Source of the DNA: Pyrococcus horikoshii OT3
Lineage (GTDB): Archaea; Methanobacteriota_B; Thermococci; Thermococcales; Thermococcaceae
Assembly: GCF_000011105.1 (NCBI RefSeq)
Contig: NC_000961.1
Location: 372,001 to 436,000 of the forward strand
DNA: 64,000 nucleotides
Direction of reading: 5' to 3'
Of the stretch, positions 35,350-60,383 are shown piece by piece. Under the pieces are notes generated by a model. It was not told where the DNA came from. It searched no databases and saw only the letters and a list, made by a program, of their open reading frames with translations. Position numbers and translations under genes: made by a program. Each line of letters starts with the position of its first letter. Position 1 is the stretch's first letter.

Positions 35350-35412
35350 CCCTATCCCCAAGTAAATGAACTTCCAAAAGCCTTATATCGATTTAGTGCG
35401 AACTCCCCTAGG

Positions 35413-35583
35413 ATGGGGATGAGGAGATCTCAGACTGCTATCGAATACCTCTTCATGTTGGCCGCGGTTCTATTGCTGATCGCGATAGTGTTTAAGGTAG
35501 TTATCGATACATTTAGAACACTGAACACTTCCGTCGGGGAGTACGTAAAGGTCATTAGGGAAAAGCTTCTCGAGAACCTTTAA
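35413..35583 (+). CDS. Class III signal peptide pilin-like protein
   Basis: This 56-residue protein is short enough to be missed. Residues 1-6 are basic (MGMRRS). QTAIEYLFML then matches the archaeal class III pilin pattern (Q at +1, E at +5, then a hydrophobic stretch), and a hydrophobic helix AAVLLLIAIVFKVV follows. The rest is a short polar tail. A prepilin peptidase should cut before Gln7. The gene ends 12 bases before the start of a membrane aspartyl peptidase. Type IV-like pilus subunits of this size are known in methanogens as EppA substrates; the match is by motif only. Confidence 0.75.
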   Translation: MGMRRSQTAIEYLFMLAAVLLLIAIVFKVVIDTFRTLNTSVGEYVKVIREKLLENL

Positions 35584-35595
35584 GGAGGTGGTTGA

Positions 35596-36780
35596 GTGAT
35601 TCCATTGATCCTCGGCACCATAGTCGGTATTCTCACTTCCTACACCGATGTGAAAACTAGCTATATATATGAGGAGCACTTCTTTCCAACTATTTCCATT
35701 CTCTCAAAGTGGTGGTGCAAAAGGAAAGGTTGTGAATACGAGAGTAAGGGTCCTTACATTCCCATAGTCGAACTCGGGATCCTTTATAATTTATTCCTGG
35801 GGGTGAAGGGTGATAATTTAATTCAAGCTCTTTCCCCCTTCATTGGATTAGTTGTTGGTTTCGCTATAGGTTACTTCCTCTACTATACCGGAGGATGGGC
35901 GAGTGGTGATGTAATAATCCTTGGAGCTTATTCAGCTTTGCTCCCCTTCGCTCCAGCGAAGGCTAAGTATGCGCCTCCCTATTCCCTATATCTCCCACTT
36001 AATTCCCTAAGCATCCTTTTCAACTCGATCCTCCTGATATTTCCCCTTATACTCATTTACTCCTTGATAGGTCTAGCCGTTAAGGGGAAGTTTAGAAGCA
36101 TTTTAGTCCTCTTCAAGGAAGGGTTGGGAGCCGTAGTTGAAGTTACCCTTTGGTTAAACTTCGCCGCAATCCTCTTTGCCTTAGTAAGTATCTATCTACC
36201 TATTCCCAGGATAATAACGCTAATCTTGGCTTTTTTGATAATTTTACTGTTCGGTAAGTTTAGAATAGTCGGGGACATAGCTGGAATTGCTTCCCTCGCA
36301 TATGGCCTTTACCTCCTGGGGATTGAGTATCTAATATATTTCGTGAAGCTCTTCGCGATAGTGTACACCTTCAAGCTCCTCTGGTCCTCGGTTAAGGCCT
36401 TAAGGAGGGAAGTCCTGATAGATGAGAAGGTAGTTGAAGAGCTTAAACCTGGAGACGTTCTTGGAGAGAGGATAGTTTTAACTGGAAGTGGAGTAGTTAG
36501 GGATAGATCTGACTTCTTCGACAAGCTTTCAAAGCTTCTAAGAGGGGAAAGGTACGATCAGGTTAAGGGTGAAGAGGTAGCTGGGTTCAGCGTTGAGGGA
36601 TTAACTGAGGAACAGATAGAAAGGCTGAAAAATCTAGTTAATGAAGGTAAGCTTGAAAATAAATTCCTCGTTAGGAAAGCCATGCCTTTTGCTCCCGCAC
36701 TCTTCCTGGGCTTCTTGACTAGTTACTTCTTCGGCGATGTACTTTGGTGGTTAATCCTTAAGGTTTCAGGCCTTGCCTAG
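35596..36780 (+). CDS. EppA-like prepilin peptidase (class III signal peptides)
   Basis: This multi-span aspartic peptidase has 394 residues. The first catalytic Asp is in SYTDVKTSY (Asp18) and the second in [11 protein letters not shown] (Asp105), the GxGD-like site of A24 peptidases. About nine hydrophobic segments are visible. A soluble insert of about 90 residues ([17 protein letters not shown]…) precedes the last span. It would cleave the class III signal of the pilin at 35413. The GTG at 35596 follows a strong GGAGGTGG. The pair looks like one small operon. Confidence 0.82.
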
Positions 36781-36812
36781 AGTTTTTAAACTCAACCCAT
36801 AATTTCGATGTG

Positions 36813-37154
36813 ATGAAAGTTTACAGGCTCTACCTTAGGGATGAGTACCTGGAGATGGTTAAGAGCGGGAAGAAGAGGATAGAGGTTAGAGTTGCTTATC
36901 CCCAGCTTAAGGGGATGAAGAGAGGGGATAAGATAATATTTAACGATGAGGTTCCGGCCGAAGTTATAGAGGTGAAGCACTACGAAACCTTTAGGCAGGT
37001 ACTCAGGGAGGAACCGATAGATAAGATATTTCCAGATGAACCTAGCTTTGAGAGGGCCTTAAGGAGGTTTCACAACCTCTACCCGAAGTGGAAGGAAAAT
37101 CGCTATGGCGTCATAGCGATAAAATTCAAGCTCCTGGGGAGGGAAAGGAAGTGA
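36813..37154 (+). CDS. ASCH-domain protein 1
   Basis: The protein has 113 residues. [25 protein letters not shown] is the ASCH/PUA-like RNA-binding start, and the RGDKIIFND strand follows. ASCH domains bind RNA or modified nucleotides. The TATA-like AGTTTTTAAAC (36781-36791) lies 27 bases before the ATG at 36813, so the mRNA is leaderless. The next gene, also ASCH, overlaps by four bases. Confidence 0.85.
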
Positions 37155-37723
37155 AGAATCTTAAGTTTGACGGTAGGTACAAGGATGACATAATATCGGG
37201 GAAGAAGAAAGCCACCATAAGGCTCGGAAGGAAGGTTAATCTAAAGCCGGGAGAGGAAGTTTTGATCCATGCTGGAGGTTACGTCCTTGGAAAGGCTAGG
37301 ATAACTAGGGTAACTACGAAGAAGGTTTCTGAGCTTACGGATGAAGATGCGAGGAAAGATGGGTTTAAAAGCAGAGAAGAACTTCTTGAAGCTTTAAGGG
37401 AGCACTACAAGTTCGTTAAACCCGATTCCCCAGCTACCATAGTGGAGTTCGAGATGCTCAGCGTTCTCGATAAGCCGATACTCTCGGCTGATTATCCATA
37501 TGAAGGGAACAATCCCATCGAGATAGCGGAACTAGCTTTGGAACATCTAGATAACCTTAGCTTTGAGGAGGTAGCCCTTCTAAAGCTCTTCCTCAAGGAG
37601 GGTAGCCTTAGAAAAGCGGCAATGAAGTTGGGTGGATTGAACAAGAGGTACAAGATCAGGGAAGTCCTTAGGAAAGCGTATGAAGAGCTAAAGAAGAGGG
37701 GAATCATGCAACCTAAGATTTGA
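37151..37723 (+). CDS. ASCH-domain protein 2 with C-terminal helical domain
   Basis: At 190 residues it starts with an ASCH domain ([23 protein letters not shown], then [13 protein letters not shown]). A C-terminal helical part follows ([24 protein letters not shown]), which looks like a winged-helix or DNA/RNA-binding tail. The GTG at 37151 is chosen: it follows GGGAGGG and overlaps the stop of the first ASCH gene. An upstream in-frame ATG would add 21 residues read from inside that gene. It overlaps the convergent bax1 end by 11 bases. Confidence 0.82.
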
Positions 37724-40605: not shown

Positions 40606-40628
40606 GTTTATAAAACTGGAATAAAAAT
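40606..40628. promoter_or_regulatory. Divergent promoters of lonB and the JAMM gene
   Basis: GTTTATAAAAC (40606-40616) suits lonB, with a start site near 40638. On the minus strand, CATTTTTATTCC (around 40617-40628) lies about 27 bases before the JAMM ATG. The first in-frame lonB ATG (40627) falls inside this region. Confidence 0.45.
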
Positions 40629-40647
40629 GTTAAGTGGCGAGAGCGAG

Positions 40648-43600
40648 ATGGATGAGGAGAGAATGGATTTAGGGATTGAGTTTGAAACTACTGAGGAGAT
40701 TCCCGTTCCCGAGAGATTAATTGATCAGGTTATAGGTCAAGATCATGCGGTTGAAGTTATAAAAACCGCTGCAAAGCAGAGGAGGCATGTCCTGCTTATC
40801 GGTGAGCCTGGAACAGGTAAATCAATGCTCGGTCAAGCCATGGCTGAGTTACTACCGACAGAGGAGCTGGAGGATATCCTCGTCTTTCCAAATCCAGAAG
40901 ATGAGAACATGCCCAGGATAAAAACGGTTCCAGCGGGCCAGGGAAGGAAGATAGTTGAGGAGTACAGGAGGAAAGCTAAGGAGCAGGAGGGGGTTAGATT
41001 CTATCTCCTCTTCTTCGTGTTCTTCATAGTTGCAATGGCCGTATTCTTGAGCCATGGAGATCCTAACACCCTCCTCCTTGGAGTGTTCGTAATACTCGTA
41101 GCCTTAATGGTCACAGCTAACATGAGGTTCAAGACCCAAGCAATGGTTCCTAAGTTACTGGTCGATAACTCCGGAAGGAAGAGAGCACCGTTCGTGGATG
41201 CAACTGGAGCCCATGCTGGGGCTTTGCTTGGCGATGTAAGGCACGATCCATTCCAGTGCTTTAGTGGCGAAGAAGTCATTATAGTTGAGAAGGGGAAGGA
41301 TAGGAAAGTGGTCAAGCTCAGGGAATTCGTCGAGGATGCCCTTAAGGAACCCTCTGGAGAGGGGATGGATGGTGACATTAAAGTAACCTATAAGGATCTC
41401 CGGGGAGAGGATGTAAGAATACTAACCAAGGATGGATTCGTGAAGCTCCTCTATGTGAATAAGAGGGAAGGAAAGCAGAAGCTTAGGAAGATAGTAAACC
41501 TCGATAAGGATTACTGGCTTGCGGTAACGCCTGACCATAAAGTATTCACATCGGAAGGTCTCAAAGAAGCGGGAGAAATTACCGAGAAGGATGAAATAAT
41601 AAGGGTTCCACTTGTGATCCTCGATGGCCCTAAGATAGCTAGTACCTATGGTGAAGATGGGAAGTTTGATGATTATATCCGCTGGAAGAAATATTATGAG
41701 AAAACTGGCAACGGCTACAAGAGAGCTGCAAAGGAGCTTAATATTAAGGAAAGTACACTTCGCTGGTGGACTCAGGGAGCTAAACCAAATTCACTTAAAA
41801 TGATAGAAGAACTTGAGAAACTTAATCTGCTTCCACTAACTAGTGAAGATAGTAGACTTGAAAAAGTGGCAATCATTTTGGGAGCTCTCTTTAGTGATGG
41901 GAACATCGACAGGAATTTTAATACATTAAGCTTTATTTCAAGTGAGAGAAAGGCCATAGAACGCTTTGTAGAAACGCTTAAAGAGCTCTTTGGTGAGTTT
42001 AACTATGAAATTAGGGATAATCATGAGAGCTTAGGAAAAAGTATTCTCTTTAGAACGTGGGATAGGAGGATTATAAGATTCTTTGTGGCCCTTGGTGCAC
42101 CCGTTGGTAACAAGACTAAAGTTAAACTTGAGCTTCCATGGTGGATCAAGCTCAAGCCATCACTTTTCCTGGCATTTATGGATGGCCTTTACAGTGGTGA
42201 CGGAAGTGTGCCAAGGTTTGCTCGTTATGAAGAGGGCATAAAATTCAATGGGACCTTCGAGATAGCCCAGCTTACTGATGATGTTGAGAAGAAGCTACCG
42301 TTCTTTGAGGAGATAGCTTGGTATTTAAGCTTCTTTGGGATTAAGGCAAAGGTTAGGGTAGACAAAACGGGAGACAAGTACAAGGTTAGACTTATCTTCT
42401 CCCAGTCCATAGACAACGTGCTTAACTTCCTTGAGTTCATTCCAATAAGCCTTTCTCCTGCAAAGAGAGAAAAGTTCCTTAGGGAAGTTGAAAGCTATCT
42501 AGCAGCTGTTCCAGAGTCAAGTCTTGCTGGAAGAATTGAAGAACTTAGAGAGCATTTCAACAGGATCAAGAAGGGAGAGAGGAGAAGCTTCATAGAAACC
42601 TGGGAGGTTGTGAATGTTACCTATAATGTAACTACAGAGACAGGGAACCTCCTTGCTAACGGTTTATTCGTTAAGAACTCTGGAGGTCTTGGAACCCCAG
42701 CTCACCTTAGGGTTGAGCCTGGAATGATACACAGGGCTCACAAGGGAGTGCTATTCATAGATGAGATAGCTACCCTCTCGCTCAAGATGCAACAAAGCCT
42801 TCTAACGGCTATGCAGGAAAAGAAGTTCCCGATAACTGGTCAGAGCGAGCTTTCGAGTGGAGCTATGGTAAGAACGGAACCTGTCCCATGCGACTTCATA
42901 CTAGTTGCCGCAGGGAATTTAGACACGATAGAGAAGATGCATCCGGCTTTGCGTTCTCGTATAAGGGGTTACGGTTATGAAGTATACATGCGCACAACTA
43001 TGCCCGACACCCCAGAGAACAGGAGGAAGCTCGTCCAGTTCGTGGCCCAGGAAGTTAAAAAAGACGGTAGAATTCCACACTTCACTAGGGATGCTGTGGA
43101 AGAGATAGTTAGGGAAGCCCAGAGGAGAGCCGGAAGGAAGGGTCACCTAACGCTCAGGCTAAGGGATCTCGGTGGAGTTGTAAGGGCCGCTGGAGATATA
43201 GCGGTTAGAAAGGGGAAGAAGTACGTAACGAGAGAGGATGTCCTTGAGGCATTGAAATTAGCCAAGCCATTGGAGAAGCAGCTGGCCGATTGGTACATAG
43301 AGAGGAAGAAGGAGTACCAGGTAATAAGGGTTGAGGGTGGTGAGATAGGAAGGGTGAACGGTTTGGCAATAATCGGAGAGCAGAGCGGTATAGTTTTACC
43401 AATAGAAGCTATAGTGGCCCCGGCAGCTAGCAAGGAGGAGGGTAAGATAATAGTCACAGGAAAGCTTGGTGAGATAGCAAAGGAAGCAGTCCTTAACGTT
43501 TCGGCAATAATAAAGAGGTACAAGGGAGAGGATATAAGTAAGTATGACATACACGTCCAGTTCCTCCAAACTTACGAAGGGGTTGAAGGTGATTCAGCAA

Positions 43601-44010
43601 GCATAAGTGTTGCCACCGCTGTTATTTCGGCCCTGGAAGAAATTCCAGTAAGGCAGGATGTTGCAATGACCGGTTCCCTCAGCGTACGTGGTGAAGTGCT
43701 CCCAGTCGGTGGCGTTACCCCGAAGATAGAGGCCGCAATCGAAGCTGGAATTAAGACGGTTATAATTCCGAAGTCTAACGAAAAGGATGTCTTCTTGAGC
43801 CCGGATAAGAGGAAGAAAATTAAGATAATACCGGTCGAGAGAATAGATGAAGTACTTGAAGTAGCCCTTGTTGAGAGCGAGAAGAAGAGGGAACTTATTA
43901 AGAGGGTAAGGGAGAGCTTACCGTTATGGATGGAAGAAACGCCTAGTGGTGAAACCCTTCATGAGCATAAGGGAGGTGCAACTTTACCTCTAGAAGAGAG
44001 CAAAGCTTAA
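40648..44010 (+). CDS. lonB: Membrane-bound Lon protease (LonB) with an intein
   Basis: This ATP-dependent protease is anchored in the membrane. Numbers are counted from the upstream ATG at 40627. Walker A GEPGTGKS is at 59-66, and two spans (around 124-165) follow. Intein residues 211-684 are removed after translation. Walker [12 protein letters not shown] lies after it, and the Ser990/Lys1033 dyad is in GDSASIS and TPKIEAA. The extein junction would read PFQ-SGGLG. I place the start at 40648 because the TATA at 40606-40616 would start transcription near 40638; 40627 and 40663 are also in frame. Without the intein it has about 650 residues, as usual for LonB. Confidence 0.95.
41257..42678 (+). 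mobile_element. LonB intein with LAGLIDADG homing endonuclease
   Basis: This in-frame protein insertion of 474 residues sits between Walker A and B of LonB. It starts with Cys ([10 protein letters not shown]), has [10 protein letters not shown] as block B, and ends GLFVKN before extein Ser. Two LAGLIDADG-type helices are visible, LGALFSDGN and [10 protein letters not shown], so an endonuclease domain is present and looks complete. The residue before the terminal Asn is Lys, not the usual His. Splicing would use Cys1, the terminal Asn and Ser+1. Confidence 0.93.
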
Positions 44011-47974: not shown

Positions 47975-48673
47975 ATGATAAGGGCGGTGTTCTTTGACTT
48001 CGTTGGAACCCTCTTAAGCGTTGAAGGGGAGGCTAAAACCCACTTAAAAATCATGGAGGAAGTTCTCGGTGACTATCCTTTAAATCCCAAGACCCTCCTG
48101 GATGAGTACGAAAAGCTAACTAGGGAAGCCTTCTCTAACTACGCTGGGAAGCCTTATAGGCCTATAAGGGATATTGAGGAGGAAGTAATGAGAAAGCTAG
48201 CTGAGAAGTATGGGTTTAAGTATCCTGAGAACTTCTGGGAGATACACCTTAGGATGCACCAGCGTTATGGAGAGCTCTATCCCGAGGTTGTGGAGGTACT
48301 TAAGAGCTTAAAGGGAAAGTATCACGTTGGCATGATAACGGATTCGGATACCGAGTACTTAATGGCCCACTTAGATGCACTGGGGATAAAGGATCTCTTC
48401 GACTCGATAACCACGAGCGAGGAAGCGGGCTTCTTCAAGCCTCATCCCAGGATATTTGAGCTCGCCCTCAAGAAAGCTGGTGTAAAGGGAGAGGAAGCAG
48501 TTTACGTCGGAGATAACCCAGTTAAAGACTGCGGGGGCTCTAAGAACCTCGGAATGACGTCAATACTCTTAGATAGGAAGGGAGAAAAAAGAGAATTTTG
48601 GGATAAGTGCGACTTCATAGTCAGCGACTTGAGAGAGGTAATTAAGATAGTTGACGAGCTAAATGGTCAGTAA
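47975..48673 (+). CDS. HAD-family hydrolase
   Basis: The protein has 232 residues. FFDFVGTLL holds the nucleophile Asp8. The usual acid Asp two positions later is Val, as in some dehalogenase-like members, so phosphatase activity is not assured. MITDSD is motif II, and Lys in FFKPHPRIF and YVGDNPVKDC complete motifs III and IV. The substrate is unknown. Confidence 0.88.
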   Translation: MIRAVFFDFVGTLLSVEGEAKTHLKIMEEVLGDYPLNPKTLLDEYEKLTREAFSNYAGKPYRPIRDIEEEVMRKLAEKYGFKYPENFWEIHLRMHQRYGELYPEVVEVLKSLKGKYHVGMITDSDTEYLMAHLDALGIKDLFDSITTSEEAGFFKPHPRIFELALKKAGVKGEEAVYVGDNPVKDCGGSKNLGMTSILLDRKGEKREFWDKCDFIVSDLREVIKIVDELNGQ

Positions 48674-48711
48674 CGGCAGGGTTCATCATTCTTCAGGGGT
48701 AGCAAACTTCA

Positions 48712-49278
48712 TCATCCCATTTCCAATCTTTTCTTTGCCTCATATACCCTCTGTATGAACGTTATCCAGGATAGTATAGCTACCAGGTATACTCCAATTT
48801 TAACGGCATTGAATAGGGATGCTATGAATATTATTATTATCCTCTCACCCCTTTCGGCAATTCCGATGGCTAACGTTCCTGAACCGGCGAGTTCCGCTCT
48901 GCACCTTGAGTAGCTAACCATGTACGAGCCGATTAAAGTTAAGAAAGTTACATCCCACCTGACCAATCCACCCAGGGCTATTCCAAATAATATCGAGGCA
49001 TCGCTAAGCCTGTCAATCGTTGAATCCAGGAAGCCACCAAACTTTGAAACCTTCCCAGTGGCCCTGGCTAGTGCTCCGTCTAAAGCATCTAGAAAAGCCC
49101 CAACCGCTAGTATTATTCCAGCTAAGATTTGATTTTGAAGGTAAAATTCGTAGGAAGCTAGGAGGGTTATCAAGAAACCTATAATGGTTAATTGGTTAGG
49201 GGTTATCCCCAGTGAAGCCAGAGTTTTCCCAATTCTTTCCAGGGGTTGCTTTACCTTCGGCCTTATCTTGCTCAGCAT
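48712..49278 (-). CDS. CDP-alcohol phosphatidyltransferase (archaetidyl lipid synthesis)
   Basis: The protein has 188 residues with about six spans. [20 protein letters not shown] then FLDSTID is the complete D-x2-D-G-x2-A-R…G-x3-D-x3-D motif. In archaea such enzymes join CDP-archaeol with a polar alcohol such as myo-inositol-phosphate; archaetidylinositol-phosphate synthase is the likeliest. Its first 83 bases overlap the end of trm56 in another frame. Confidence 0.88.
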
Positions 49279-60307: not shown

Positions 60308-60383
60308 TGGTAGCCCCGCCGGGATTCGAACCCGGGTCGCGGGATCCAAAGTCCCGCATGCTTGGCCGCTACACCACGGGGCT
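60308..60383 (-). tRNA. tRNA-Gln (anticodon TTG)
   Basis: On the minus strand the 7-base acceptor stem AGCCCCG pairs with CGGGGCT. The anticodon arm is CGGGA-CTTTGGA-TCCCG with anticodon TTG, and the T arm has GGTTCGAATCC. The CCA end is encoded in the gene. A TATA-like TTTAAAAA lies about 30 bases upstream (60410-60421). Total length is 76 bases with CCA. Confidence 0.95.

Follow-up and report, generated by a model that had tools for sequence, protein, structure and literature searches.

The gene pair made up of a very short class III pilin gene and an EppA-type prepilin peptidase gene occurs in every genome in which it could be checked and is probably a universal and barely described part of the pilus machine of Thermococcales, an order whose pili have, to our knowledge, hardly been characterised. 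Judged by gene order, the two genes form a fixed unit in these archaea. As to its role, we lean, with modest confidence, towards a coupled substrate-enzyme unit of an EppA-dependent type IV pilus, in which the pilin would be a constant core or minor subunit. The window herein analysed is a 64,000-nucleotide stretch of Pyrococcus horikoshii OT3, corresponding to positions 372001-436000 of its single 1,738,505-bp contig. The features of the pair, in window coordinates, are as follows.

35376..35388 (+): AAAAGCCTTATAT, probable BRE/TATA element ahead of the pilin-eppA transcription unit, its TATA-like octamer centred 34 nt before ATG 35419
35413 (+): alternative upstream prepilin start ATG, giving 56 aa
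35419..35583 (+): gene for the predicted headless class III prepilin, 54 aa (PF04021 match, orthologs adjoining EppA, start taken from relatives)
35419..35430 (+): predicted signal peptide MRRS, cut before Gln5 (from the leaders of relatives)
35431..35580 (+): mature pilin of 50 residues, with a hydrophobic helix (1-25) and an amphipathic tail (26-50) (50 residues in 50/50 loci; predicted helix)
35584..35591 (+): Shine-Dalgarno site GGAGGTGG for eppA, immediately behind the stop codon of the pilin gene (read from the sequence)
35596..36780 (+): gene for the 394-aa prepilin peptidase of EppA type (A24 family), with Asp18 and Asp105 as catalytic residues (PF06819, invariant Asp pair)

Linkage of the short pilin gene to eppA

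Using a profile of the short frame, we identified a pilin ortholog in 91 of 94 Thermococcales genomes, each with one strong match of 79-106 bits and with everything else at or below 57.7 bits. EppA was found in 92 of the 94 genomes, one copy each, including all 74 genomes of good completeness. By comparison of coordinates, the pilin gene shares contig and strand with EppA and immediately precedes it in every one of the 91 genomes that carry both; the 92nd EppA match, without the pilin, is a 31-aa end fragment. The preliminary description of this DNA had asked whether homologues of the short frame in other Thermococcales keep the peptidase next door, and they do. Nucleotide change within the pilin gene is highest at codon position 3 (0.64), followed by position 1 (0.38) and position 2 (0.22). 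A chance frame is ruled out by the linkage in 91/91 genomes, the fixed length and the codon-position pattern, and by these comparative measures the short gene is genuine, present across the order and maintained by selection.

In Pyrococcus, the pair is flanked by bud32 upstream and a gene for an ASCH-domain protein downstream, and in other genera by the ASCH-domain gene upstream and a phosphatase-like gene downstream; comparison of these flanks between Pyrococcus and the other genera revealed no third conserved gene in the unit. Two overlapping ASCH-domain genes are present in the window, at 36810-37154 and 37088-37723. The first of them, downstream of eppA here, precedes the pilin gene in divergent orientation in other genera, and its shifted place is a sign of local rearrangement.

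The frame at 35413-35583 (+) encodes MGMRRSQTAIEYLFMLAAVLLLIAIVFKVVIDTFRTLNTSVGEYVKVIREKLLENL (56 aa from ATG 35413) and ends 12 bases before the GTG start of the peptidase gene at 35596; this spacing, D18 and D105 of the peptidase, and the GGAGGTGG ribosome site were all read correctly in the preliminary description. In most relatives the stop codon of the pilin gene falls within the eppA ribosome site, TGAGGTGNNNNNATG, with a gap of 9 bases between the two genes, and such a layout suggests translational coupling. In one genus (g5; L042, L043, L045 and L047), a second small class III pilin of about 61 aa, MRRAQGALEYLFMM..., is encoded directly upstream of the headless pilin and ends about 200 bases before the stop of the short pilin, making a three-gene unit.

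Start, cleavage site and shape of the pilin

The frame itself stood as proposed, but its start and mature end, given in the preliminary description as ATG 35413 and Gln7, are probably ATG 35419 and Gln5. In all other relatives the nearest in-frame start is located 3-7 codons upstream of Gln(+1), and in 48 of 50 relatives a TATA-like element precedes the pilin start by 33-48 nt; within the genus the spacing from TATA to start is 33-37, and ATG 35419 gives 34. Because both the start spacing of the relatives and the TATA-to-start spacing of the genus point to it, ATG 35419 (54 aa, MRRS|QTAIEY) is probably the start, and ATG 35413 is disfavoured since it would need a nearly leaderless transcript. 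The leaders of relatives consist of 3-7 residues, are basic and end in A, S or G before an invariant Gln, and the cleavage site is thus probably Ser4|Gln5.

The short protein has the traits of a class III prepilin, namely a short basic leader, Gln at +1, Glu at +5 and a hydrophobic helix. PF04021 (Class_IIIsignal) is matched by all 45 members of the pilin family tested (best E 1.6e-9); the window pilin itself sits at the cut-off of 23.7 bits, with 23.3-23.4 bits (E=6e-5) when searched alone and 23.7 bits, counted as over the cut-off, in the genome search. The proposed class III prepilin next to an EppA-like peptidase is well supported. The mature length is exactly 50 residues, with no indels, in 50/50 loci read, and Q1, A3, E5, Y6, A11, L14, L16 and L50 are invariant in 45 distinct mature sequences, the end of the tail being conserved as (L/I)L-E-(N/D/T)-L.

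AlphaFold2 returned one continuous helix for residues 2-53 of the 54-aa precursor with a mean pLDDT of 91, and on this model the short pilin is headless, although a lone helix is an easy target and the prediction shows hardly more than that no head domain is present. A profile search of PDB found no solved structure of a pilin relative; the one hit, to a phage packaging ATPase (E 0.08), was taken as chance.

The peptidase and the dispersed pilus genes

The peptidase frame matches PF06819 (Arc_PepC) with 102 bits against a cut-off of 23.4. The NCBIfam EppA equivalog NF053826 gives 51 bits, below its curated cut-off of 450, and the protein is therefore labelled EppA-type rather than a certified equivalog. 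Identity to most Methanococci EppA is about 20-25%, and D18 and D105, invariant in Thermococcales EppA, align with Asp in 28/28 well-aligned Methanococci sequences. The second catalytic motif (residues 102-105) departs from a strict GxGD: Thermococcales EppA reads AxGD (WASGD), with Ala102 invariant in 20 sequences, and Methanococci EppA reads GGGD. The predicted structure has a mean pLDDT of 86.5, its best fold match being the FlaK protease 3S0X with a weak E-value of 0.05. The linkage in 91/91 genomes, with Gln at +1 and Glu at +5 of the pilin, argues strongly that the peptidase is the cognate one, as had been put forward.

The proposal that the two genes form a small self-contained module failed. 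Elsewhere in the genome, a frame for an assembly ATPase of 1144 aa precedes two TadC-like frames (582-587 kb), two further small pilins are encoded at 695 kb, and larger class III proteins with DUF2341-type proteins (the minor-pilin locus) at 1198-1212 kb; the TadC and DUF2341 labels were given from position and published layout, not from a family scan. The pilin-eppA pair thus belongs to a pilus system whose genes are dispersed. Within the 1144-aa ATPase frame (contig positions 582096-585530), the T2SSE match spans only part of the profile, and the frame presumably holds an intein, likely of the KlbA type. Clade-1 (Epd) pilus genes are likewise described as scattered (PMC4858521, PMC3875500).

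Five archaellin genes are located at contig positions 488990-492878, and the fla genes reach 499582. By PF01478 no A24 peptidase besides EppA was detected in this genome, the FlaK model detected no FlaK in a set of nine Pyrococcus genomes, and no FlaK gene was seen beside the fla locus of this genome. The archaellins are trimmed either by a highly divergent FlaK or by EppA as well. EppA might then serve several systems, and the short pilin could belong to another class III structure such as an archaellum base, a pseudopilus or a bindosome-like assembly. We regard this as very improbable: the short pilin carries the signature of EppA pilins and lies far from the fla locus, while the archaellins of this genome start with (R/K)(R/K)G-A(V/I)GIG, without Gln at +1 or Glu at +5.

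Role of the pilin and its likeness to Epd and Tad pilins

If the pair is a coupled substrate-enzyme unit, the prepilin would be inserted into the membrane, its four-residue basic leader would be cut by EppA immediately before Gln+1, and the mature 50-residue helix would be passed into the pilus by the ATPase of KlbA type together with the two TadC-like proteins of the platform. There it would most likely act as a constant core or minor subunit, for example an initiator or base pilin needed by every filament, the bulk of which would be built from the longer, multi-copy, tail-variable small pilins. These other small pilins of Thermococcales are mostly of 51-62 residues and often several per genome, as expected of exposed bulk subunits. 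In the last 16 residues, mean identity is 48% for the EppA-linked pilin against 26% for the other small pilins, and the order is reversed at the N-termini, with 69% for the EppA-linked pilin and 83% for the others. Since the tail is the part exposed in a filament, a conserved tail of fixed length in a single-copy gene points to contact with a constant partner, which suggests a core, base or initiator subunit rather than a bulk one.

A core or minor subunit is thus backed by the invariant Q1 and E5, the single-copy ortholog, the conserved tail, the machine genes in the genome and the precedent of EpdD (MMP1283) in M. maripaludis, where this very small minor pilin is essential for piliation although unlinked to the major pilin (PMC3875500). 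Against it, an abundant major subunit would likewise suit the clear conserved promoter and the leading position in the operon, the ATPase, platform and other pilin genes are unlinked to the pair, and profile comparison shows no orthology with the 53-54-residue pilins of Methanococci.

One close system for comparison is the Epd pilus of M. maripaludis (EppA with EpdA-E). It likewise has a peptidase of EppA type in which the catalytic Asp pair is the same, substrates with Gln at +1 and Glu at +5, and very small pilins, 54-63 residues long when mature, whose genes are separate from those for the ATPase and the platform (PMC3875500, PMC4858521); EppA cleavage in M. maripaludis needs the +1 Gln (PMC4390842). 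The short pilin of Thermococcales differs in its 50 residues and in finding no profile match there. In a group of 36 methanogen genomes around a Methanothermococcus, EppA was detected in 34 and the pilin profile matched in none; methanogen eppA is followed by a class III (EpdA-like) gene and has no headless pilin upstream. With E about 0.01 and a probability of 2-3%, hhalign did not support orthology with the 53-54-residue Methanococci pilins (EpdD-type). A similarly placed glycosylation sequon in those pilins was considered as a lead to kinship, and the profile comparison gave it no support.

Tyr at +6 is present in 58/58 small pilins collected from Thermococcales, a count biased by the set having been gathered mostly with a Tyr-rewarding profile, and in 0/28 from Methanococci, an unbiased count as these came from PF04021; the latter have Phe or Leu instead (Ile and Val once each). 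EppA (arCOG02300) and small stand-alone pilins of Thermococci are already known from the clade-1 census of Makarova et al. 2016, and the portions of it consulted make no mention of a fixed two-gene pilin-EppA unit or of a constant 50-residue pilin.

The absolute linkage in 91/91 genomes, the layout suggestive of translational coupling, the conserved tail and the loss of flanking synteny while the pair stays together would also suit a small membrane partner of EppA, such as a chaperone, an activator or a pseudosubstrate, that is no filament subunit at all. This we hold to be unlikely, because the full class III cleavage motif, needless for a non-substrate, is kept, and because EppA of Methanococci works without such an upstream neighbour in the 36 genomes where the profile found no match.

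In tad loci of bacteria the pilin gene is followed by the peptidase gene (flp-tadV, pilA-cpaA), and this order is common to the Thermococcales pair. Tad/Flp pilins are, like the short pilin, headless and all-helical with E5-Y6; the mature form of Caulobacter PilA is a 45-residue helix (structure 8u1k checked), and its Glu5-Tyr6 pair makes hydrogen bonds in the core (PMC11067988). The headless helix, the invariant E5-Y6 as in the Caulobacter core, the gene order and the clear promoter could together indicate that the EppA-dependent pilus has the short pilin as its major pilin, a headless subunit of Flp/Tad-like kind that polymerises via E5-Y6 and is made together with its peptidase. Such a role is possible and clearly the less probable one, as a single copy, a strictly constant length and a C-terminal tail under conservation are unlike exposed major pilins, the same genomes also encode longer, multi-copy small pilins whose tails vary, and no match to Flp_Fap was obtained. 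The constant core or minor subunit therefore remains our preferred reading.

Membership of the short pilin in the bacterial Flp_Fap family was rejected: this family is absent among those listed at E up to 10, and no Tad pilin was found in PDB with the pilin profile. At the level of sequence comparison, the Tad/Flp likeness is a resemblance and not membership. The Thermococcales system also differs in its larger archaeal EppA-type peptidase with the Arc_PepC domain and in a pilus machine split over several loci. According to published trees, Tad descends from an archaeal system of Epd-like type (PMC6668835), and it is conceivable, though rather doubtful, that the E5-Y6 pilin with EppA is living kin of the ancestral flp-tadV/cpaA pair, with a role as seed or core of the filament. 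If so, the closest archaeal kin of Tad pili would be in Thermococcales, not in methanogens. E5-Y6 offers a concrete sequence link for weighing the proposal that Tad arose from EppA-dependent archaeal pili, a link that is informative because the Methanococci pilins examined are without that Tyr. The short gene adjoins EppA wherever EppA was found whole, and it provides a handle on whether headless pilins seed archaeal filaments.

Besides the pair, the window carries a Lon-like AAA+ protease gene of 1127 aa at 40627-44010 with an apparent intein inside, a Pyrococcus C/D box small RNA (Rfam) at 48664-48719 on the minus strand, and a tRNA gene (Rfam) at 60311-60383, also on the minus strand.
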